Source: a virus. Taken from it: a stretch of 20,176 nucleotides of DNA. Positions 491 to 17,919 of this stretch are shown here, piece after piece (position 1 is the stretch's first letter; each line of letters opens with the position of its first letter). The notes beneath the pieces were generated by a model. It did not search any database. It saw only the letters and a program-made list of their open reading frames with translations, and had not been told where the DNA came from. The translations under genes were made by a program, and so were the position numbers. The stretch covers positions 1-20,176 of the IMG/VR virus record IMGVR_UViG_3300025132_000410, one strand, 5' to 3'.

Positions 491-2869
491 ATGTATTTAG
501 GTTCAAATAAAATCCCACAACAAAAATTACCTCTTAGTAAAAAGACTAAGAAATGGAGAGAAGAATGCGTGGAAGCATATATAGATCTTTCCACAGCTGG
601 TTACAGTGAAAGACGTGACTGGCTAAAAACTTTATATGATTATTATAACGGTGTAATCGACGAAGCAGATTATAGATACGTACTCAAGCCTTACGGTAAA
701 ACAAGGCAAAATTTCCCCTCTAAGATGCGTAACTATCCTATCATTAAACCTATTATAGATCTGTTACTCGGGGAGAAGTCTAAAAGACCTCTAAATTACA
801 CCGTTACCGTACAAAATTCTGATGCAATTACTATTAAAGAGCAGGCAAAATCAGAATTATTAATGAAAAACTTTCAACAACAGTTTATGAACCAGGCAAA
901 TGAAAGGGGAGCTAAAACAGGAGTTCCTACCCAGCCGGTTCAGCCGCCTGCCCACATAGCACAAATGTTTGATAATAACTATGTGGATAATAGGGCTATA
1001 AAAGGTCAACAAGCTATGAATTTTATAGAACAGCATCAAGAAATATATGATAAGCTACAAAAGGCTTGGTTTCATTTTTTAGTTGCTGGGGAAGTATATA
1101 CTTGGAGAGGAGTTCGTAGCTCAGAACCTTTTTATGAAATATTAAATCCTTTAGATATTGATTATGATAAAGATCCAGATGTAGAATTTGTAGAAGATGG
1201 GGACTGGGCTTTAATTAGAAAATATGTTCATGCATCTACAATTATAGATCATTATAGAGATTATTTATCTGATGAAAATATATTAAGGTTAGAAGAACCT
1301 GAACATGCTAGTATGGATTCATATCTAACTATGGCTAATAGGGCTGACGATAGAGAATTGTATAGAGAAAGATTAATTGAAGTAGTTAGTGTGTATTGGA
1401 AAAGTAGAAAAAGAATAGGATTTTTAAATTACATAGATCCAGAAACAGGAAGTTGGGAACAGCAAAGAGTAGATGAAAAATTTAGAATGCCTGCAGAAAT
1501 GAAACAGACAGGAGCTAAGGTAGAATGGGAATGGATTAATGAAGTATGGGAAGGTACAAGAATAGATGGGAATTTGTATATTAAAATGGAACCTTGTACA
1601 AATCAAAGGACTTCTATGGATAACCCATCTAAATGTAAGCTCCCAATTAATGGAAGAAAATATTCAGACTTAAATTCTAAAAATATCTCTTTAGTATCTC
1701 TTGGGATACCTTATCAATTAAATTATAATATTTATAAATATAGATTAGAATTGGCAATAGCTAAGAGTAAAGATATTATTGCTCAATTTGATATTAATAT
1801 GATCCCTAAAAAATGGGACATGGATAAATTTATGTATTATGTAGAAGGTACAGGTATTGCATGGGTAGATTACAATAAAGAAGGGATTCAATTATCTCCA
1901 CAACATCAGGGTGTATTAGACTTATCTATTAAAACAATTGAACAATATATAGTTCTTTTAAATTCTATAATGGAGGAGTGGGAAAAAATATCTGGTGTAA
2001 ATAGACAAAGACAGGGAATGGTTGGATCTTATGAAGGTAAAGCAACATCTCAACAGGCTATTGTACAATCATCTCATATTACAGAAGATTTATTTAGAAA
2101 ATTCTCTAGATTAGAACAAAGAGATCTTCAAGCATTATTAGACTATTCTAAAGAAGCTTGGTTAACAGGTAAGAAAGGAATGTATGTAATGTCGGATGGA
2201 ACTAAAGAATTATTTGATCTTAACAGTCTTCAACATATGGAATCAGAATATGGAATATTCTTATCAGATTCTGGACAAGATCAAGATAAATTAGATATAT
2301 TAAAGCAACTTGCTCAATCTATGGTTCAAAATGGAGTACCTGCTTCTACTATTGCTGAAATGGTTGATGCAGATAACTTTAGTCAAATTAAAGAAAAGAT
2401 TAAAGGTGCTGAAAAAATGCAACAACAATTAGCACAAGCTCAACAAAAAGCAGAATCTCAACAACAAGAGGCTCAAAGACAACTTGAACGAGAGAGAATA
2501 GAAAATGAAAACATGAATCAAGAAAAAGATAGAGAGACTAAAATACGTGTTGCAATGATACAGGCTGAAGCTAAGATGATGGATAATGCATATGATTCAG
2601 AAAAATCTGTAAGAGATGCCGGTATTAAACAAAGGCAAAACGAATTAAAGACAGAAGATATAGTAGAAAAAGCTAGATCTAATAGAGCAAAAGAAAATTT
2701 AATAAGAGAAGATCAAAGGTTAAAAGAAGATAAAGAAGGTTCTGATAAAAGAGAAAGATCGGCAGATAGACGACAGGCTAAAGAAGACAAAGAAAAAGAT
2801 ATAGAAATTAAAAAAGAAGATCAAAATATAAAAAGAAAGGCAGCTGCAAACAAACCTAAATCTGAATAA
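491..2869 (+). CDS. Portal protein
   Basis: A 792-residue protein read as the portal, the dodecameric ring at one capsid vertex through which DNA is packaged and ejected. Residues 81-100 read 'NYPIIKPIIDLLLGEKSKRP', a wording I associate with crAss-like phage portals ('...LLGE..KRP'). Residues about 190-245 ('...AWFHFLVAGEVYTWRG', then 'YEILNPLDIDYDKDPD' and 'VEDGDWALIRKY') are typical of the portal wing and stem region. From about residue 638 the chain is highly charged and Gln/Lys/Glu-rich ('QQLAQAQQKAESQQQ' onward), predicted as a long helix or coiled coil, which makes it longer than many portals. It follows the terminase gene and its TAA overlaps the next ATG by one base (TAATG), which suggests translational coupling. 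A TATTTTTG box upstream may drive it. The family assignment is from memory; position and motifs make portal very likely. Confidence 0.88.
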   Translation: MYLGSNKIPQQKLPLSKKTKKWREECVEAYIDLSTAGYSERRDWLKTLYDYYNGVIDEADYRYVLKPYGKTRQNFPSKMRNYPIIKPIIDLLLGEKSKRPLNYTVTVQNSDAITIKEQAKSELLMKNFQQQFMNQANERGAKTGVPTQPVQPPAHIAQMFDNNYVDNRAIKGQQAMNFIEQHQEIYDKLQKAWFHFLVAGEVYTWRGVRSSEPFYEILNPLDIDYDKDPDVEFVEDGDWALIRKYVHASTIIDHYRDYLSDENILRLEEPEHASMDSYLTMANRADDRELYRERLIEVVSVYWKSRKRIGFLNYIDPETGSWEQQRVDEKFRMPAEMKQTGAKVEWEWINEVWEGTRIDGNLYIKMEPCTNQRTSMDNPSKCKLPINGRKYSDLNSKNISLVSLGIPYQLNYNIYKYRLELAIAKSKDIIAQFDINMIPKKWDMDKFMYYVEGTGIAWVDYNKEGIQLSPQHQGVLDLSIKTIEQYIVLLNSIMEEWEKISGVNRQRQGMVGSYEGKATSQQAIVQSSHITEDLFRKFSRLEQRDLQALLDYSKEAWLTGKKGMYVMSDGTKELFDLNSLQHMESEYGIFLSDSGQDQDKLDILKQLAQSMVQNGVPASTIAEMVDADNFSQIKEKIKGAEKMQQQLAQAQQKAESQQQEAQRQLERERIENENMNQEKDRETKIRVAMIQAEAKMMDNAYDSEKSVRDAGIKQRQNELKTEDIVEKARSNRAKENLIREDQRLKEDKEGSDKRERSADRRQAKEDKEKDIEIKKEDQNIKRKAAANKPKSE

Positions 2870-5800
2870 TGTTAACAAACGAACAGAAATTAGATATAAT
2901 GAAACAAGCCTTTGAAGAAGGCTATGATGGTTTTATGAGCGATCTTTGGGCTCAGGCTGATCCTCAAGAAGCACAGAATATGCAAACAGATTCTTCTTAT
3001 CCCCCTCTATCTAACACAAGCCCAACTATATCAAACATAAAAAGCGAGTCTAGTCCTGCACCAATATCTAATATATCTGCAGAAGAAATTCCTAATTCTC
3101 AAAGTTTAGTACAAAGTTATGAGTCTGAAAATTTAGGTGAAATGCCTATGGGAGCAAATGTCCCAATGCAATTAGATGAGCCAAATAGTTATAAAAAAGG
3201 TGGGTATAAAGTAAGTAATTTAATTGGTTTTAAACCAGATCTTACAGATATAAGTCCTAGAAATTATTTGAAGAATTATAAAAGATATGAAAGTGGGGGA
3301 GTACAAAATTTTATATCTGTAGATGATTATAAATTAGAAGGTAGAGGGGCTGGAATGATAGATGACAAGACTGATCATCTTAAAAAAGTAAAACTAGCAT
3401 CTTTACAAGAAAAACAAAGAACTTATGATCCTTTAGGATTTTCAGAATATTATTATACATCTCCTAAACATAGAGAGCGATTAGAGAAAAGAGGTTATTC
3501 AAATGAAGAAATATTACAAAGATCTGAGTTTTTAGGTGGATATGGACTGTTGAGTAAGGGCCCAAAAATAGTAGATAGAACTGGTACTTCAGGAAGTAGA
3601 GCTTATCCAACAAAAAATAAAATTGTAATGGATTATGAGAAGGATAAAAGTAGGTCTCCAAACGTTACATACAATGAAATATTAGCCCATGAACTTGGCC
3701 ATTTATCTACAGGATATACACCTTTAAAGAAAAAGGATATTAAAGAAATTGTAGACAGAAGCCAAGTACCTATTAAAGACGAACAAAATGATTATTTTGC
3801 ATCAGAAATAAAATCTGATTTGGATTCAATTAGGTTTATGCTATTTAATGCAGGGGTTTATGATGCGGGTACAGAAGATTTTGATTGGTATGATCTTAAC
3901 CAAGCTAAAGAAAAGTTACAAGATTCTCCTACATTTAAAAGGGTAATAGACACTTTTAAAGATAGTGATTTCTTGTGGTTAATGAATAACATAGCTATGG
4001 AAGAGTTAGAAATTCAAGATGGATTAGCTTTGAAAATGCCAACGACAAGATCTAAATTTGGGGGTAAGAGAAAAAAATATTTTGAAGGAGGAACATTAAC
4101 GGAAACAGATGCACCCGTAGAACAAATGTCTGATGACCAATTAAAAGCAATAATAATTGGTGAAGATTTTGGCGACAGTTTTTCTGTAGAGGGACAAAAT
4201 GCGCAAAGGCAACTTGACGCAAGATATGGAGAGGGCAATTGGCAAATTGTAGATGCCGCTCAATTTAATAAAAATCAAACACTTCATCCACAGGGTACAT
4301 ATTCTGGTTATGTAGGTCCAGACGCAGATAGATACGAAGAAGCAGGGGGATGGAATTATAGCGCACATCCAGGTTATGGACCAACTAATCAACCTGGACT
4401 AGATTTTTTTAGTGGTTTAGAAGGTGTTTGGCCTGAAAATATGGGACCTAATACAGATATTATACTTTGGGGCCATACTTGGGGACCAGGTACAGGAGCT
4501 AGTAATGAAGCTGCTTTTATGGGACATCCTTATATTGAAACAAAAGAAGGTGTAGATCCCTCAATAATGAATCCAGATAGTTGGGCTGAATTTATGGGAA
4601 GTCAATTAGAAGAAGATTGGGAAGGATGTATGTATTTTGGAACTTGTGGGGGAGGGGCAATAGGAAAAGGATCAGGTGTTCCTGTTGAGGGTTCTGAATT
4701 TGAAGATGATATTAGTCTTACTGGATTAACATCTCCTCTGCAGGACTTTACTACTCAGTTATCTGAATTGCGACCAGGAGATCTTTATGGTTCAAGTTAT
4801 TATGCACCAACAGAAACATGGTATGGGACTAAACTTAGTAATTATTACCCATTTAAAACATTTGGATTTGACCCAAATACAAGAGCTGATGATGATGCTT
4901 TTGCGGGTACTCTATTTGATCCTTTGGAAAAAACAATGTCTTCAACAACTAGTAACGCATTTGAAGTAGGAAGCCCATTTCAAAGAATTACATTACAAGA
5001 ACCTGGATTTGGTTATGATGGTTCAGAAGTTTCTCCTTTAGATATTCAATATTCTCAACTAGGTAGCAAAGAAGTTGGTTATGATTATCCTTACGGAGAA
5101 GGTTTTCACTATTATGATGAGGATATTGTAGAAGATCCAGAATCCGCATATAGATTTCATCATTTCCAACCATATCGTTTTCAAGATGACTACGACGAAG
5201 ATTCATATAACTATGATGACTACAGAACTGGCGGATTAAGAAAAAAATATTTTCATGGAGGATTTCATATGGGACCAATTATAGGACCAAATCTTGCAAA
5301 ACCCATAGTTAATACATTAAGTAATATTTTTTTTCCAGGCGCAGATAAATTTCATAATTGGACAAAAGAAAAAGGACTTACAACCCCAACTACAAGAGGG
5401 GGAGCTTTTAGACCAGGTGTTTTGGGAAACTATGAATCTCATCCGCTGAGACAACAAATAAATTTACAATCTTATCCTGTAGATGGTAGTGAATCAGAAA
5501 TAGATCAGTGGTATGATACTGCAGGTCATGAGTGGTTTCATCATCTTCAAGCACAAAAGGGAAGATTAGCACAAAAAGAAATAAGACAAAATCCAGTAGC
5601 TTTAAAAGGTAAAGATATTGTAGGGCCAATTAATAAAGAGACTCACAAATTACATTTTGGTGCAAGAGGTACTGATTTTGATCATGAAGTGGAAGAAATA
5701 GAAAACGATCTTATGGAAGCACTTAGTATTCCTGAAGCTTCACTTCTTAGTGAAGATCAACGGATTAAATTATTAAATACAAAAACTCCACAGTCTATGC

Positions 5801-6435
5801 GAAGATTGGTAGGATTGACTAGTTATCCTTCAAGATCAGGAAGTACGAGTAATATATATAATGAAGCTAATCAGAGATTATATGAACATTCTCATACAAC
5901 AGAAGGAGAAGCAAGAGATAGAGAAGAGGATATAGGTGGAAATTTAGCTTTTAGAAGTTATTTTGATAAATATCATAAACCAAATGTTATAGAAGATTTT
6001 GAAAATCAAGCTCCACTATCAGCAGCAAATGCTTATGTAGGAAATATTAGTGATACAGATAGAATAAGAAATGAAGTATGGGGACAATTTGTTAAACCGG
6101 GAAATTTATATAATCCTAATATATCTAGAAAGTATTATAATGATGGTGGGAATTTAGACTATTACCCACAATCAAAAAATCCTAATTATGCATTTAGATC
6201 ACTTTATGATGAGGGAAGTCATTATGGAAGACATGAGGGAAAGAAGGATAAAAAAAATCTAAATTATGTTCCCCAAATAAAAAATCCTAAATGGCAAGCT
6301 AAAATAAATGAAGAATATTTGCAAAGAAAAAGAAACTTAGACTATTATCCACAATCACAAATTAAACCATCGCAATATACTATAGAGTTAAATAGTTTAA
6401 GACGTGGCGGATTAAGAAGAAAAAGAATAAAATAA
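2869..6435 (+). CDS. Large multidomain protein with two zinc-peptidase-like (HExxH) domains and a possible caspase-like domain
   Basis: A 1188-residue protein whose ATG overlaps the portal stop. The N-terminal ~100 residues are a helix followed by a Ser/Pro/Asn-rich linker. Domain 1 has HELGH at 274-278, with E313 in 'SEIKSDL' as a possible third zinc ligand. The middle region (about 415-650) has 'TDIILWGHTWGPG' (H536) and 'CMYFGTCGGG' (C593), 57 residues apart, resembling the His/Cys dyad of caspase-like (clan CD) peptidases. Domain 3 has HEWFHH at 887-892 and 'EEIENDL' with E943. The domains are separated by [KR][KR]YxxGG-type motifs (138-144, 398-408, 788-798, 1087-1094), and the C-terminus ends GGLRRKRIK. 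No signal peptide or membrane segment is evident. It sits between portal and scaffold, where many phages encode the prohead protease, so head maturation is one reading. A virion-carried, ejected enzyme is another. Peptidase activity is inferred from short motifs only; I do not recognise the full protein. Confidence 0.6.
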   Translation: MLTNEQKLDIMKQAFEEGYDGFMSDLWAQADPQEAQNMQTDSSYPPLSNTSPTISNIKSESSPAPISNISAEEIPNSQSLVQSYESENLGEMPMGANVPMQLDEPNSYKKGGYKVSNLIGFKPDLTDISPRNYLKNYKRYESGGVQNFISVDDYKLEGRGAGMIDDKTDHLKKVKLASLQEKQRTYDPLGFSEYYYTSPKHRERLEKRGYSNEEILQRSEFLGGYGLLSKGPKIVDRTGTSGSRAYPTKNKIVMDYEKDKSRSPNVTYNEILAHELGHLSTGYTPLKKKDIKEIVDRSQVPIKDEQNDYFASEIKSDLDSIRFMLFNAGVYDAGTEDFDWYDLNQAKEKLQDSPTFKRVIDTFKDSDFLWLMNNIAMEELEIQDGLALKMPTTRSKFGGKRKKYFEGGTLTETDAPVEQMSDDQLKAIIIGEDFGDSFSVEGQNAQRQLDARYGEGNWQIVDAAQFNKNQTLHPQGTYSGYVGPDADRYEEAGGWNYSAHPGYGPTNQPGLDFFSGLEGVWPENMGPNTDIILWGHTWGPGTGASNEAAFMGHPYIETKEGVDPSIMNPDSWAEFMGSQLEEDWEGCMYFGTCGGGAIGKGSGVPVEGSEFEDDISLTGLTSPLQDFTTQLSELRPGDLYGSSYYAPTETWYGTKLSNYYPFKTFGFDPNTRADDDAFAGTLFDPLEKTMSSTTSNAFEVGSPFQRITLQEPGFGYDGSEVSPLDIQYSQLGSKEVGYDYPYGEGFHYYDEDIVEDPESAYRFHHFQPYRFQDDYDEDSYNYDDYRTGGLRKKYFHGGFHMGPIIGPNLAKPIVNTLSNIFFPGADKFHNWTKEKGLTTPTTRGGAFRPGVLGNYESHPLRQQINLQSYPVDGSESEIDQWYDTAGHEWFHHLQAQKGRLAQKEIRQNPVALKGKDIVGPINKETHKLHFGARGTDFDHEVEEIENDLMEALSIPEASLLSEDQRIKLLNTKTPQSMRRLVGLTSYPSRSGSTSNIYNEANQRLYEHSHTTEGEARDREEDIGGNLAFRSYFDKYHKPNVIEDFENQAPLSAANAYVGNISDTDRIRNEVWGQFVKPGNLYNPNISRKYYNDGGNLDYYPQSKNPNYAFRSLYDEGSHYGRHEGKKDKKNLNYVPQIKNPKWQAKINEEYLQRKRNLDYYPQSQIKPSQYTIELNSLRRGGLRRKRIK
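6151..6366 (+). repeat. Three imperfect 'NLDYYPQSKNP' repeats in the C-terminus of the multidomain protein
   Basis: Copies start at residues 1095 (NLDYYPQSKNP), 1130 (NLNYVPQIKNP) and 1156 (NLDYYPQSQIKP), corresponding to DNA at about 6151-6183, 6256-6288 and 6334-6366. The first and third are also close at DNA level (aatttagactattacccaca versus aacttagactattatccaca), suggesting recent duplication. They lie between the last KYxxGG motif and the basic tail. Function is unknown; a short binding motif is possible. Confidence 0.7.
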
Positions 6436-6513: not shown

Positions 6514-7665
6514 ATGGACAATAACAAAAAAATCAATGTCGAAGACATATCTTTTGATGATATGCTAGACGGGGGAATAGAAGATGTTGTAGATGCAACA
6601 GAAGCGCCCCAAGTAGAAAAACTAAGTGAATCTAATGTTGAAGAAGTTAAAACACAAGCTGAAGAGGATTCTTTGGATGATGATGTTAAAGCTAAACAAC
6701 AGGAAGACGCGAAACAAGAACAGGTACTTGCGGAAACAGAAATACCGCAACCAGAACAGAAAACAACTTCTGAAGAAACTCCTGAAGTTAAAAATGAAGG
6801 GGAGGATAAAGAAGTGGATGACTCAGTAATTGGTCAAGTATTATCTTCTTTAGGATATGAAACTGACAATAAGTATGAGGATACTCCAGAGGGATTAACT
6901 AAAATGGCGCAAGATGTTGGATCTCAATTAGCTGAAGAGCAGTTAGATACCTTGCTTCAAAAATTCCCACTTGTAGCAGATCACTTACAGTATGTGATAA
7001 GTGGTGGGAACAGTCAAGATTTTATGGCTGTTAATGATCCTAGATCAGATTTTTCTAGAATGAGAATTCAAGAAAAAGATTTAGCCGGTCAAAAATATGT
7101 TCTTTCTGAATATTTTAAATCAAAAGGACATGATAATAAGTTTATTAATGAACTTATGGATGATTACCAGGAATCTGGTAAACTTTTTGCTAAAGCTCAA
7201 AATGCTCAAAAGTCTTTAGCCACTGCACAACAACAGTATAAAAAGCAAATGTTGGCACAGCAACAACAAGCGCAACAACAACAAATGCAAGAGCAAAATA
7301 AATTTTGGAATGGTGTTTATAACACTATAGATAAATCCAAAGAATTTCAGGGAATACAAATCGCTGAAAGAGAGAAAGGGAAATTTTTTGATTACCTTTC
7401 AAAACCTGTAACCAAGGAAGGTTACACACAAAGAGACATGGACTATTCAAAAGCGAATATGGATGTTAAACTTGCAATGGACTATTTAATGTATAAGGGT
7501 TTTAACCTGGATAAATTGATTGACAGAAAAGCTAGAACTAAGAGTACACAATCTCTTAAGGATAGAATTAAAGGACATCAAGAAACTGTTAAAAGTGCAA
7601 GAAAAGCAAGTAAAACTTCAAATAAAGCGGTTGATATAGAAGATTTAGATTTAAGTCTCTTTTAA
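6514..7665 (+). CDS. Probable capsid scaffolding protein
   Basis: A 383-residue protein immediately upstream of the major capsid gene, the usual place for an internal scaffold that shapes the procapsid and then leaves. Its make-up fits: residues about 1-110 are disordered and very acidic (many Glu/Asp with Gln and Pro). The middle is helical. About 235-262 is extremely Gln-rich ('QQQYKKQMLAQQQQAQQQQM'), probably coiled coil. The C-terminal ~60 residues are basic ('DRIKGHQETVKSARKASK') before a short acidic-hydrophobic end 'VDIEDLDLSLF'. Basic C-terminal segments in known scaffolds contact the capsid protein. There is no catalytic motif. The ATG at 6514 follows a possible promoter and there is no Shine-Dalgarno site. 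The call rests on position and composition, since scaffolds share little sequence. Confidence 0.65.
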   Translation: MDNNKKINVEDISFDDMLDGGIEDVVDATEAPQVEKLSESNVEEVKTQAEEDSLDDDVKAKQQEDAKQEQVLAETEIPQPEQKTTSEETPEVKNEGEDKEVDDSVIGQVLSSLGYETDNKYEDTPEGLTKMAQDVGSQLAEEQLDTLLQKFPLVADHLQYVISGGNSQDFMAVNDPRSDFSRMRIQEKDLAGQKYVLSEYFKSKGHDNKFINELMDDYQESGKLFAKAQNAQKSLATAQQQYKKQMLAQQQQAQQQQMQEQNKFWNGVYNTIDKSKEFQGIQIAEREKGKFFDYLSKPVTKEGYTQRDMDYSKANMDVKLAMDYLMYKGFNLDKLIDRKARTKSTQSLKDRIKGHQETVKSARKASKTSNKAVDIEDLDLSLF

Positions 7666-13044: not shown

Positions 13045-13611
13045 ATGGCAAGTGTAAACTTATCACTAACTTCAGATTGTAGATTATTAACTTATAAAAT
13101 TACTGCACCAATACCAACAGTAGAAGGGGCTGAGTCTCAGGAAGAATTAGAAAATACTGAAAATGTAGTTGCAATTGAAATTTACAATAATGGAGTTTTA
13201 GTCTCTAATACAGATACAGCAATACTTAATTATGCTAATGGAGATGCATTTACTAATACAACAACTATATCTGTTCCTGATGTTATAGGAACAGATCCTG
13301 GTATAATTACAGTTTTAATACAAGATGCTGAAGGAGGCGCTACAAGTGCAGCTATTTTAAGTTCTTGTGAACTAGATTGTTGTTTAGCACAAAAAGTTTT
13401 AGATCTAACAAAATGCACAGATTGTGATTCAAAGTGTAGTGATCAATTAGTTATAAGTCAAAAGATATTTTTATATATGGAATCTATAAGAACTCTTTTA
13501 GGACAATTAGGAAATGATGTAACAATTAATCAAGGAATCATATCTCAAGCACTGGATACATATAATGCCGCAAAAGCATTATGCTCTGGTAGCTGTGGAT
13601 GCAACTGTTAG
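13045..13611 (+). CDS. Cysteine-rich 188-aa protein, probable tail or fibre-associated
   Basis: A 188-residue protein with 11 cysteines: C12, then C108/C112/C113 ('CELDCC'), C124/C127/C131 ('CTDCDSKC') and a C-terminal cluster 180/184/186/188 ('CSGSCGCNC'). The N-terminal ~100 residues look like a small beta domain (Ig-like, 'VAIEIYNNGVLVSN'), followed by helices ('KIFLYMESIRTLLGQLG'). The spacing of the Cys groups suggests either metal binding or disulfides formed outside the cell. I do not recognise a named family. It ends in TAG, the only non-TAA stop among the complete gene ends here. Only two bases separate it from the 1297-aa adhesin gene, itself Cys-rich, so the two probably work together. 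The strong hairpin upstream suggests a new transcript or reduced read-through. No promoter is recognised. Confidence 0.55.
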   Translation: MASVNLSLTSDCRLLTYKITAPIPTVEGAESQEELENTENVVAIEIYNNGVLVSNTDTAILNYANGDAFTNTTTISVPDVIGTDPGIITVLIQDAEGGATSAAILSSCELDCCLAQKVLDLTKCTDCDSKCSDQLVISQKIFLYMESIRTLLGQLGNDVTINQGIISQALDTYNAAKALCSGSCGCNC

Positions 13612-13613
13612 AA

Positions 13614-16600
13614 ATGGCTAAAACAAAAAATCTATCAACAAGTAAATCTAAATTAGATCCTAGGTGGGATAAATATTCTAGTGCAGCTACTATAGCTACA
13701 TCAGGAGTATTTTCATCTAATATGCCTAAATTAGCACAAGGAGTAGTTTACCTTCAAAATAATAATAGGTTAATTGTAGATATTAGATATAAACATGATA
13801 AAGAGTATGATAGAATTGTTAATGTTATTGATAAATCAAAATCTAAAAAATTAACTATAGAATTTGGTAATGAGGGTAATATTACGTTAACGTATAAAAA
13901 TTGGAATAAAAAACTTTCTTCTACCAAAGAATTAGTTTTAATATTTGCATCAGGTTATAGAAAAACTATAACTTTAAAAATACCTGGTACAAATTCTAAA
14001 TTACAAAATTCTGTAGAGAGTGTAACTTCTATATTAACATCTTCTCCATATGAAAATATGTTATCTGTAGATGTTCAAGATGTTTTAAATAGCAGTAATC
14101 AATTATTAGTTGGAGTGTATCCAAAAGCAGATCCTTATAATGTGTTTAATTATAAAGGAGTGTTTGCTTATAATCTTCCATTTGCTTATTATATAAATTC
14201 AGATTCTCTTAATGAAGTATTTGTTAAAAATGGAATAACTTCTTCAAATAAAAATGTAGACAAAGGAATGTCTTCAAGAGGTGTAGGACATCTACACCCC
14301 GCACCAAAAGCTCAAGAGATACACTTTTTAAATGTGTCTTCATCTGGACAAGATATAATAAAAAATAATTTAGAATTAAATTCTGTAGCAAATTCTAACT
14401 CTTTTACGTACGGATTTGTGTATGGTGAAAATTTATATGATATTCCAGATGATGCTCCAGATTTCTATGTATGTATGGACGAAGGAGATTCTTCATATTA
14501 TAGAACAACTAATCAAGATTGTGATGGTAATACGATATCAGAAAAATATTTAATTGGTACTAGTCCTGCTAGATTTTTAGACGGACAATGTTGCACACTT
14601 AATTGTGATGGGTTTTCTATTAAATTAATAAATACTACTTTAGCTAATGCAGATTGGGGAGCAAGCGAGGGAAAAATAAAAGCTATAGTTACAGGAGGTC
14701 AAGGAGATTGGACATATAAAGTTGAAAATAATACAACTGGAGTATCTACAACAGTTGCTACAGCAGAATCAGAATATGAATTTACAGGATTAGCTTTTGC
14801 AACTTCTAATGATAGTCCATACAAAGTAACAGTAACAGATTCTAATACCTGTAGTACAATAGCTTATATACATTTAAGTAAAAGTGTTAATGTAAACGAT
14901 GGGTTATTACAAGGATGTACAGATTCTGGTGGTTTAAATTACGATTCAACTGCAGATGTAAACACAGGATGTTTATTTTGCTTAGCTGAAGGCCCTAGAG
15001 GAGAAAGTTATAAAAATTTAAGTTTTGGAATGAGTGCTGCTACAAGTAAAGCGTTAGGAGCAGAACTTATTGTAAATGAAAGTAGTAAAGTTACACATGC
15101 AACTGCAAGTGGAAATAGCGATGGAAAAATAAGTTTTAAAGGATCTATATTTCCTGCTGCATTACCTGAAATTGATAAAGATTCAGACGAAGCTTTTAGA
15201 TTTAAATTATATTCTTTAGGATCAGGAGAAAATGCAAATAATAAAACTAAAGCGGAAATATTAGCTTTAAGTGCAACAACAACAGTAGCTAGTGTTCCAG
15301 ATTTAGAGCATGAGTTTAGTAGTTTAGCTCCAGGATGGTATGCCATAAGTATAGAAGTTTTAAATCTTGGTACTTTAACAGAATGTGTAAGTGTTTATAG
15401 ATTTGAGGTTAAGTATGGAGGATGTATGGACAAGTTAGCTGACAATTATGATAAAGATGCTACTTATGATAATGGAGGTTGTACTTATGTCTGTAACGAA
15501 GAAGTAGTAGGAATTATTACTGAAAGTCTTGAAAATAAGTGTTTAAAAACTGTTAGAGTAAATAGAAAAAAGAAGCACGAAAATATAACTTGGAAAATAG
15601 GAACAGAAACAAAATCTGGACCAGGTCCTCATTTAGCAAAACCAGGAGATTATGTACATGTATATATAGAGAATACAAAAACAAAATGTTCTAATACAGG
15701 AGAAGCTTTTATAAAAGAAGAAGATTGTACTCAATCAATGATTAAAAAAGCATACTCTAATAGCATATTAAATTCTGGAGGATGTACAGATAATACAGCT
15801 TTTAATTATAATTGTGATGCTATTTTTGATGACGGGACATGTATACCTGTTGTACAAGGATGTATGGATATGGAATCTCCAAGTTATAGTCCAACTGCAA
15901 ATGTAGATGATGGATCATGTATAGAATATTTAGAAGGATGTCTTAATCCTCAAGCTTTAAATTACAATCCATTAGTTACTTTACATACTGAAGTATTATG
16001 TATGTATAGTGGAGTAAAATTACTAAATGTTATATCAGCTTTACCATGCCCATCAAGCCCTGGTACTTCTATTCCTATTTATGATGTAAACGCTAATTTG
16101 ACGACTGTTGTTTTTAATATGGTATCAAGTACTTCAGTAGGAACAGGATCTACTCTTAAAGCATATAAACTTCCACATAATACTATTTTAGAACAAGGAT
16201 TTTCTATTGATACATTAACATTTCCTTTAGAGGATAGTGGAATGGAACCTGATGCAACATGGAAGTTCACAGGACTTGATTCTCCTTTTTATTCTTCTCC
16301 TTTTGCTGGTATAGGTCCAGATTTTCTTCTTTGGGGAGGCGCACCAAATTACGAGCCTTATTTATTAGATACGGGCGGTGATGGTTTAGCTACAATTCAG
16401 CTTGATGGCACATATACTGCAAATAGTGGTTCTTTAGGATATGGAGCTTATATATTTGAATTAAAAGTAATAACAAATGGAAAAGTTTTTTACTCTAGAA
16501 TATGGAGGCAATTGCCAAGTAATTGTCCAGCTATTCAAAGCGGGCAAGATTTAGACCCTGCTTCTAATTATGATGGGGGTGGGTCTAAACAAAAGGGATG

Positions 16601-17507
16601 TACAGATCCTAATGCAGATAATTATTTAGGTGTAAATAGTTTTACTCCTGATTTTTTACCTTTATTAGATTATCCATCACTTAATATTAATTATAATCCA
16701 CAAGGATTAGAGACTTTTAATACAGGAAATCCTGAAGGGGCGGGTGCACAATTATGTAAATATAAATTAAATAAAATTTGTTTACCTCCAAGAATAGATT
16801 CTCAAATTGCATACTTAGAAAAATGTATAATGAATGGATCTGTAAATTGGTACAATAAAAATATAACAGGAGGAAAGGATTCTTGTGATGAATTAGCTTT
16901 ATGGACAATGATATTTATAAAATATCTTGTATCTAGAAAAGGTTTAGATTGTATATTTAATTGTGCAGATTCTGGAACTCCAAATTATGAGCCTCAAACA
17001 TGTGAAGAAAAATGGGTAGAAGGAGGAAGTAAAATGTGGAGACCTACTACTGATACATATATGTTAGGTGATACTTTTACCCCATTAAGTATAATTAAAT
17101 ATGATACGGTATTCCCTTGGATGGGAGATGAAATTCCAGGAGGATCTACGATATGGACTCTATTTAGTGACTGTTTTCAAAACTGTGGTAATCCTTATGG
17201 TAACGGATCTGAAAACTTTAGACTATGTAAAGATGATAAAGTTTTTAGTGATAAGACAAATTATTTAGATGCATTTTTTAAATTTGCAACTAACTACTGT
17301 AGGTCATGTCAACCTTGTTCTTTTTTACCAGGAAATGAACCAACTGTTTTATACAATACTGATTCATTTACATATAGCACTGAAACAGATGGCACATTAA
17401 CAATTGGAGGAATAAATTTAGAAATGGATGGGGAAGAAATAGAAGGAGAAGAAGGCGGTGGTGATACGCCTCCACCACCACCACCACCAACACCTCCAGT
17501 GAAATAA
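13614..17507 (+). CDS. Large adhesin-like virion protein with host-type Cys repeats and SprB-like modules
   Basis: A 1297-residue protein counted from the ATG at 13614, two bases after the previous stop. An in-frame ATG at 13599 would overlap that gene and is less likely. The N-terminal ~330 residues are an unassigned domain. Residues about 331-430 ('GKIKAIVTGGQGDWTYKVEN' then 'YKVTVTDSNTCST') resemble a SprB-type repeat of Bacteroidota surface adhesins, and about 460-602 may be a second. 'GCxDxxAxNY...GxC' repeats begin at 434, 603, 723, 749 and 775, with a degenerate one at 995. A Cys-rich helical region and cluster ('YCRSCQPCSF') follow, then an acidic-Gly hinge ending in seven prolines. 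No signal peptide or autotransporter part is present. With a tail fibre downstream, a receptor-binding or tail-decoration role is likely. All 20 Arg codons are AGA or AGG. Domain names are by eye. Confidence 0.65.
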   Translation: MAKTKNLSTSKSKLDPRWDKYSSAATIATSGVFSSNMPKLAQGVVYLQNNNRLIVDIRYKHDKEYDRIVNVIDKSKSKKLTIEFGNEGNITLTYKNWNKKLSSTKELVLIFASGYRKTITLKIPGTNSKLQNSVESVTSILTSSPYENMLSVDVQDVLNSSNQLLVGVYPKADPYNVFNYKGVFAYNLPFAYYINSDSLNEVFVKNGITSSNKNVDKGMSSRGVGHLHPAPKAQEIHFLNVSSSGQDIIKNNLELNSVANSNSFTYGFVYGENLYDIPDDAPDFYVCMDEGDSSYYRTTNQDCDGNTISEKYLIGTSPARFLDGQCCTLNCDGFSIKLINTTLANADWGASEGKIKAIVTGGQGDWTYKVENNTTGVSTTVATAESEYEFTGLAFATSNDSPYKVTVTDSNTCSTIAYIHLSKSVNVNDGLLQGCTDSGGLNYDSTADVNTGCLFCLAEGPRGESYKNLSFGMSAATSKALGAELIVNESSKVTHATASGNSDGKISFKGSIFPAALPEIDKDSDEAFRFKLYSLGSGENANNKTKAEILALSATTTVASVPDLEHEFSSLAPGWYAISIEVLNLGTLTECVSVYRFEVKYGGCMDKLADNYDKDATYDNGGCTYVCNEEVVGIITESLENKCLKTVRVNRKKKHENITWKIGTETKSGPGPHLAKPGDYVHVYIENTKTKCSNTGEAFIKEEDCTQSMIKKAYSNSILNSGGCTDNTAFNYNCDAIFDDGTCIPVVQGCMDMESPSYSPTANVDDGSCIEYLEGCLNPQALNYNPLVTLHTEVLCMYSGVKLLNVISALPCPSSPGTSIPIYDVNANLTTVVFNMVSSTSVGTGSTLKAYKLPHNTILEQGFSIDTLTFPLEDSGMEPDATWKFTGLDSPFYSSPFAGIGPDFLLWGGAPNYEPYLLDTGGDGLATIQLDGTYTANSGSLGYGAYIFELKVITNGKVFYSRIWRQLPSNCPAIQSGQDLDPASNYDGGGSKQKGCTDPNADNYLGVNSFTPDFLPLLDYPSLNINYNPQGLETFNTGNPEGAGAQLCKYKLNKICLPPRIDSQIAYLEKCIMNGSVNWYNKNITGGKDSCDELALWTMIFIKYLVSRKGLDCIFNCADSGTPNYEPQTCEEKWVEGGSKMWRPTTDTYMLGDTFTPLSIIKYDTVFPWMGDEIPGGSTIWTLFSDCFQNCGNPYGNGSENFRLCKDDKVFSDKTNYLDAFFKFATNYCRSCQPCSFLPGNEPTVLYNTDSFTYSTETDGTLTIGGINLEMDGEEIEGEEGGGDTPPPPPPPTPPVK
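14913..15488 (+). repeat. Dispersed GCxD-type Cys repeats 1 and 2 in the adhesin
   Basis: Copy 1 (14913-14981; residues 434-456, 'GCTDSGGLNYDSTADVNTGC') and copy 2 (15420-15488; residues 603-625, 'GCMDKLADNYDKDATYDNGG' then C) flank the second SprB-like module. The pattern is Gly-Cys-x-Asp, Asn-Tyr, then Gly-x-Cys or Gly-Cys about 19-20 residues after the first Cys, as in Cys repeats of flavobacterial surface proteins. Confidence 0.75.
15780..16007 (+). repeat. Three tandem 26-residue GCxD-type Cys repeats in the adhesin
   Basis: Copies start at residues 723 ('GCTDNTAFNYNCDAIFDDGT' then C), 749 ('GCMDMESPSYSPTANVDDGS' then C) and 775 ('GCLNPQALNYNP' ... C796), exactly 26 residues (78 bases) apart. 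The first two keep Asp-Asp-Gly before the second Cys; the third has lost it. A degenerate sixth unit starts at 16596 ('GCTDPNADNY') without a normal second half. The regular spacing points to tandem duplication. Confidence 0.85.
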
Positions 17508-17508
17508 A

Positions 17509-17919
17509 ATGTTACTATATACAAATAGTAAATTAGAGGTACGCAAATCTACTATACATGGGTATGGAGTTTTTGCAAAAGAAGACATAAAAAAAGGAGA
17601 ACTATTAGAAGAATGTCATTATATACAATTTAAAGATAAAAATGGTATTGATGATAATTTTTTAGAATATGCATTTTCTTGGCCTAAACGTGATAGACAC
17701 GATTTGAAAGGAAAATATAAATATGCAACTATACCGCTTGGATATGCTTGTATTTATAACAGTTCATTAAGTAGTAATGATAATAATGCAGACTGGGAGA
17801 CTGATATTAAAAATAATTTGTTTATATTTACAGCGGTAAAAGATATTCCTGCAAATACAGAGATATTAACATATTATGGAAATGCATATTGGAGCAAAAG
17901 AAATAATAATATAAAATAA
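17509..17919 (+). CDS. SET-domain protein (putative protein lysine methyltransferase)
   Basis: A 136-residue protein that is essentially one SET domain, the fold that moves methyl groups from S-adenosylmethionine to protein lysines. Residues 16-23 'IHGYGVFA' and 'DIKKGELLEE' form the N-terminal SET signature. N84 in 'CIYNSS' sits where the family has Asn-His-Ser, so the His is replaced by Ser. Then come 'NNADW' and 'TAVKDIPANTEILTYYGNAY', with Y122/Y123 supplying the usual catalytic Tyr. Pre-SET and post-SET zinc clusters are absent. One base separates it from the adhesin stop and seven from the fibre start, so it belongs to the tail-fibre operon. Its substrate could be a virion protein or a host protein; neither can be read from sequence. 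The fold call is firm, the activity less so because of the His-to-Ser change. Confidence 0.85.
   Translation: MLLYTNSKLEVRKSTIHGYGVFAKEDIKKGELLEECHYIQFKDKNGIDDNFLEYAFSWPKRDRHDLKGKYKYATIPLGYACIYNSSLSSNDNNADWETDIKNNLFIFTAVKDIPANTEILTYYGNAYWSKRNNNIK

Follow-up and report, generated by a model that had tools for sequence, protein, structure and literature searches.

Comparison with described systems

MuF-fused effectors of phages are encoded beside the portal gene, and their enzyme fusions are thought to be delivered together with the DNA. In crassviruses, the cargo proteins C1 and C2 (gp45 and gp46 of crAss001) have been proposed to be carried in the virion, part of cargo protein 1 of crAss001 being located within the capsid on the portal wing (PMC10172136). 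Polyvalent proteins of phages and plasmids, as described in passages of PMC5512222 (Iyer et al. 2017), are multi-domain proteins, presumably delivered on invasion, with a zincin as their commonest domain. The window analysed here, a 20-kb stretch of viral DNA (IMG/VR record IMGVR_UViG_3300025132_000410), is a fragment of a crAss-like phage that includes the end of TerL and genes for a portal, a scaffold-like protein, a crassvirus-type major capsid protein (MCP; PF23898, E 1.1e-80) and a ring protein (PF25710). Between portal and scaffold, as a sequence-only reading of this DNA had placed it, lies an open reading frame (ORF; 2869-6435) of 1188 residues, the slot ORF, whose ATG overlaps the portal stop codon. 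Its product comprises an N-terminal anchor and modules delimited by GG tags, including a gluzincin (domain A), a candidate clan CD cysteine peptidase (domain B) and a candidate second zincin (domain C). It is probably the local version of a hypervariable, exchangeable, virion-carried 'polyvalent' payload protein of crAss-like phages, and looks like replaceable enzyme cargo of the virus particle, not a part needed for building the particle.

The likeness to polyvalent proteins, as far as the passages of PMC5512222 go, extends to several modules per protein, a gene lying among virion genes, a zincin module (sometimes more than one per protein), and a zincin with a three-stranded core in which the HExxH motif and the Glu lie on later helices. 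By contrast, the window protein has no recognised named polyvalent domain besides the zincin, and its anchor and GG tags are not met in those passages; it also has a possible clan CD peptidase, and the word caspase is absent from PMC5512222. As to the several enzyme domains that mark a polyvalent protein, one is established in the window protein, while relatives add pesticin or lysozyme modules. Like the genes of MuF-fused effectors, the slot gene adjoins that of the portal, but Pfam and PHROG detect no MuF domain in its product. Pfam also gave no match of the window slot protein to PF25725, the cargo-1 (C1) domain of crassviruses.

The slot between portal and capsid genes is already annotated with proteases in gut crassviruses, i.e. 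as 'peptidase' (cr10_1 gp64), 'protease' (cr53_1 gp90) and 'putative zincin superfamily protease' (cr109_1 gp91), although no protease in this slot is mentioned in the crassvirus literature searched. A profile of domain A matches cr10_1 gp64 (34 bits), cr53_1 gp89 (35 bits) and cr109_1 gp90 (29 bits), with amber codons read as Q, but matches neither cr109_1 gp91 nor cr53_1 gp90; cr53_1 gp89 and cr109_1 gp90 adjoin these annotated genes and occupy the same genome slot as the window gene. The gut slot genes differ in having one short zincin each, no B or C domain and a shorter N terminus. The claim that a three-peptidase arrangement in this position had not been described thus holds only in part. 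Novel here are how large and modular the marine version is, its tags, the possible cysteine peptidase and a tie between zincin and cargo. The slot and scaffold genes of the cr53_1 and cr109_1 loci (L126 and L144, respectively) contain in-frame amber codons, consistent with TAG being read as Q.

A variable slot with a tagged, modular product

Relatives of the window comprised eighty loci fetched by capsid protein. The portal-scaffold slot is empty in L069, L071 and L084, where an 89-nt gap separates the flanking genes; it encodes 154 residues, the anchor only, in L008, then 249 (L007), 386 (L014), 1014 (L010) and 1226 residues (L001), and at its largest up to 1,462 residues, in two genes (L035). 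Across loci whose slots range from 0 to 1,462 residues, the MCP is 79-91% identical. HExxH motifs are found in 12 of 37 distinct slot proteins vs none of 328 portal, scaffold, MCP, ring and neighbouring proteins. When the window protein is shuffled, at least one HExxH arises in 4% of the shuffles and at least two in 0.1%; two in a protein of such composition is unusual. NCBIfam and PADLOC gave no match for the window slot protein.

The stretch ending in the first GG tag is common to most slot proteins. Several relatives have a DUF192-like segment (PF02643) in this anchor (E 2e-4 to 7e-7; only L113 passes the curated cut-off), of which the window anchor retains only the end. Tags of the form [KR][KR]x0-4GG number 70 in slot proteins, compared with 13 expected from shuffles (about fivefold), whereas portal, scaffold and ring proteins have almost none. 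Their consensus centres on Y-K-K-G-G-Y-K, with Y/F at +2, R at +3 and K at +5 enriched about 3-6 fold, the residues after GG being positions that the search did not condition. Of the ends of local homology blocks, 38% lie no more than 5 residues from a tag vs 6% of random positions, a sixfold excess (counts that are not mutually independent), and it follows from blocks ending at tags that modules are exchanged there. Sequence comparison thus indicates a semi-conserved anchor followed by exchangeable modules that are joined by YKKGGYK-like tags.

Individual loci have features of their own. The slot protein of L015 (5966-8695) has a pesticin-like lysozyme (PF16754, E 1e-11) and, in addition, a weak kinase-like region (PF03109, PF07714). 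L035 (4369-8759) has two slot ORFs, the first with a PEVEISALS...HTHYGPNSSE region in two similar copies, the second with a zincin but no N-terminal anchor. In L104 (5668-6432) a solo 254-residue zincin of the domain A family is encoded between TerL and portal, not after portal.

The gluzincin and the candidate peptidase domains

The sequence-only reading proposed two HExxH sites, each followed by a candidate third zinc ligand, and a His/Cys dyad between them. The motifs are all present at the residues given, i.e. HELGH (274-278), SEIKSDL (E313), GHTWGPG (H536), FGTCGGG (C593), HEWFH (887-891) and EEIENDL (E943). The three-peptidase reading built on them is partly supported, in that one peptidase fold is confirmed, one is likely and one is possible.

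Profile searches found about 50 distinct domains of the domain A family in contigs. Conservation of the HExxH is near complete (first His 48/48, Glu 47/48, second His 48/48), and the distal Glu corresponding to E313 is invariant (49/49). An AlphaFold2 model of domain A, made with 23 alignment rows, has pLDDT of about 80-96 over most of its length, with three short strands as a sheet, the HExxH on a helix (64-79 in model numbering) and E313 on the next helix but one (100-123). The VIA-align rows covering domain A are zincins only, including the protease domain of anthrax lethal factor (Z 6.0, 130 residues aligned, rmsd 5.7), PepO (Z 5.1, 140, rmsd 4.8), IrrE (Z 4.9, 85, rmsd 3.5), ArdC (Z 4.7, 109, rmsd 4.7) and ECE-1 (Z 4.6); these Z scores are modest, and the absence of a fold from the VIA-align list does not exclude it. 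Foldseek with the model gave no match in the PDB at E 1e-3 or better, and a PDB sequence search with domain A gave nothing meaningful. Two domain A scans of a species-genome collection, using short patterns that reach close relatives only, found no relative. Because the ligands are invariant and the fold matches are zincins, an intact gluzincin, predicted to be a peptidase, is the safe reading of domain A in spite of the modest Z scores. Both family conservation and the predicted fold thus bear out the first HExxH with E313 as a gluzincin site; a zincin fold is predicted and the His/Glu ligands are conserved in the homologues.

Domain B is known in four sequences, those of the window, L001, L013 and L010, with identity down to 26%; homologue searches added only L001 and L013, that of L010 having already been found. 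It lies downstream of domain A in all four loci, and the 31 alignment columns without variation among the four sequences include the GH of H536 and the GxC of C593. The model has a beta-alpha-beta layout at low confidence (pLDDT about 50-68), with H536 and C593 at the ends of two predicted strands (pLDDT about 50-62). By VIA-align it matches caspase-3 (Z 4.6, 129 residues aligned, rmsd 4.4), caspase-6 (Z 4.4, 148, rmsd 4.6), PorU (Z 4.0) and GPI transamidase (Z 3.8), all of which are clan CD enzymes; flavodoxin-like folds (Z 4.9) tie with the caspases. Pfam and PDB sequence searches gave no match. A clan CD (caspase-like) cysteine peptidase is a plausible candidate for domain B. The suggested caspase-type dyad is favoured by its conservation and its position at predicted strand ends, but is weakened by the low-confidence fold and by the tie with flavodoxin-like folds.

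The assignment of domain C is the more tentative. Homologue searches found L001 alone, and its conservation is uninformative because this single homologue is 87% identical. Modelled alone from the two sequences, domain C has a pLDDT of 31. For the third ligand, E1012 and E1014 in TTEGEARD are equal candidates beside E943. The best alignment of domain C to the domain A profile pairs both HEWFH and E943, with 16 of 599 HEWFH-keeping shuffles scoring equally; profile-profile comparison of domains C and A detected no relation (probability 0.1%), and a PDB sequence search with domain C gave nothing meaningful. From its motifs, domain C is possibly a second zincin.

Table 1. Positions of the slot-protein features and flanking genes in the window
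Feature (residues)	Position	Strand	Basis or remark
Portal gene	491..2869	+	phrog_6547, E 1.5e-124; stop overlaps slot-gene start (TAATG)
N-terminal anchor (1-112): helix, then conserved LVQSY...MPMG...YKKGG ending	2869..3204	+	
GG tag YKKGGYK (108-114)	3190..3210	+	
Domain A, gluzincin (239-379)	3583..4005	+	conservation and predicted fold
HELGH (274-278), presumed zinc-binding/catalytic motif	3688..3702	+	sequence
E313, invariant, presumed third zinc ligand	3805..3807	+	conservation
Double GG tag RSKFGGKRKKYFEGG (394-408), A/B module joint	4048..4092	+	
Domain B, possible clan CD (caspase-like) cysteine peptidase (409-689)	4093..4935	+	conservation and weak model
H536, end of a predicted beta strand	4474..4476	+	conservation and model
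C593, end of another predicted beta strand	4645..4647	+	conservation and model
Double GG tag RTGGLRKKYFHGG (786-798), B/C module joint	5224..5262	+	
Domain C, possible second zincin (799-1086)	5263..6126	+	elsewhere in L001 only
HEWFH (887-891)	5527..5541	+	sequence
E943 in EEIENDL, candidate third ligand	5695..5697	+	sequence
GG tag RKYYNDGG (1087-1094)	6127..6150	+	
C-terminal tag RRGGLRRKRIK (1178-1188)	6400..6432	+	
Scaffold-like gene, bounds slot	6514..7665	+	

Links to the virion

Homologues of domain A occur in cultured phages of Cellulophaga. In the crassvirus phi14:2, g070 has two domain A-family zincins (66 and 62 bits), as do phi4:1 gp041 and its phi17:2 counterpart gp042, and the records of phi14:2 g070 and phi4:1 gp041 carry the note 'experimental MS/MS proteomics analysis' (virion). 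The best two viral fold matches of the model are also phi14:2 g070 and phi4:1 gp041. All three Cellulophaga phage proteins share the zincin family with the slot protein, as a tandem pair, but are encoded at another genome position and have no B or C domain. Phi17:2 gp042 (L003 10426-12645) and phi14:2 g070 (L129 10360-12141) are 50% identical over 488 residues; phi17:2 is a Lightbulbvirus and phi14:2 a crassvirus, with Cellulophaga baltica as common host, and this likeness would fit a host-directed module passing from one phage to another, unrelated one.

L112 joins a domain A-family zincin to the crassvirus cargo-1 domain (PF25725), and in several other contigs the fusion partner is Phage_lysozyme2. 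In most of the contigs found by the profile, the zincin gene belongs to a structural block, where it neighbours either the portal gene or genes whose products are related to the giant virion protein gp043 of phi17:2 or to proteins of the phi14:2 cargo region. The MS/MS-noted homologues, the cargo-1 and lysozyme fusions and the structural-block context argue for virion cargo, and by analogy the window slot protein is likely to be carried in the same way. Of the two roles raised by the sequence-only reading, that of a virion-packaged effector is favoured by the MS-detected homologues and the cargo-1 fusion, though for the window protein itself by inference.

The probable payload role and its alternatives

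As a payload, the slot protein would be produced alongside the portal protein, enter the capsid as cargo and leave it before the DNA or with it; like polyvalent proteins, it might then act early in infection, its peptidase module(s) cleaving proteins of the host or further phage proteins that are ejected. Several points weigh against this reading. The MS/MS-noted homologues are at other genome positions, phi14:2 having no slot gene and its zincin gene being near cargo and RNA polymerase genes. The homology-block counts, as stated, are interdependent, and some contigs that lack a zincin match may not be complete. The other role suggested from the sequence, that of a head-maturation (prohead) protease cutting scaffold or capsid protein in assembly, is very unlikely. 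Its attraction is the position of the gene between portal and scaffold, tightly coupled to portal, and the zincins that gut crassviruses also have in the portal-capsid slot. However, the slot is optional among close relatives, loci with 79-89% identical MCP having an empty slot or the 154-residue anchor alone, and a domain A-type zincin match is missing altogether from 8 of 12 large related contigs (54-88 kb); empty slots and zincin-free contigs together make a role in capsid maturation unlikely. PHROG, Pfam and NCBIfam scans gave no match of the window protein to known prohead protease families, and the retention with capsid genes across the family that would mark a prohead protease was not found.

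The GG tags that delimit the modules, and the proposal in passages of PMC5512222 that polyvalent-protein zincins process their own polypeptide, would also fit a self-processing polyprotein, in which the peptidases cut at the tags and so free the modules before packaging or after entry, and do not attack the host. We regard this as rather unlikely, since the tags are present too in slot proteins without a recognisable peptidase and may be mere linkers or recombination joints. An enzyme of envelope entry, with modules that help to breach the cell wall or work in the periplasm, not the cytoplasm, during genome ejection, is unlikely; in its favour are the fusion of domain A-family zincins to Phage_lysozyme2 in several contigs and the pesticin-like lysozyme among the slot modules of L015, but the window slot protein has no recognised lysozyme domain. 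A bolder form of the payload reading, that the slot is a dedicated payload cassette behind the portal, with a capsid-directing anchor and plug-in enzymes whose tags are cut by the built-in zincin and caspase-like peptidase, is likewise not one that we would expect to hold. An exchangeable, virion-carried payload protein is thus the reading that we prefer.

Other features of the window

A 1302-residue protein (13599-17507), perhaps a fibre or surface protein, has recurring GC-D--A-NY---A--DDGSC-like repeats and no PHROG match. A SET-domain protein (PF00856, E 2.2e-10) is encoded at 17509-17919; this fold, of protein-lysine methyltransferases, is to our knowledge unusual among phages.

Implications for crassvirus biology

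Crassviruses abound in the gut and, as with the window phage, in the sea, and much of the cargo of their particles that enters the cell is still without assignment. The interest of the locus rests more on the modular slot than on the three-peptidase reading. If a payload cassette were indeed cut at its tags, one virion would deliver a set of separate effectors. A fast-changing, tag-delimited slot beside the portal offers a simple place to seek delivered enzymes, and its modularity accounts for the recurrence of zincin genes beside the portal.

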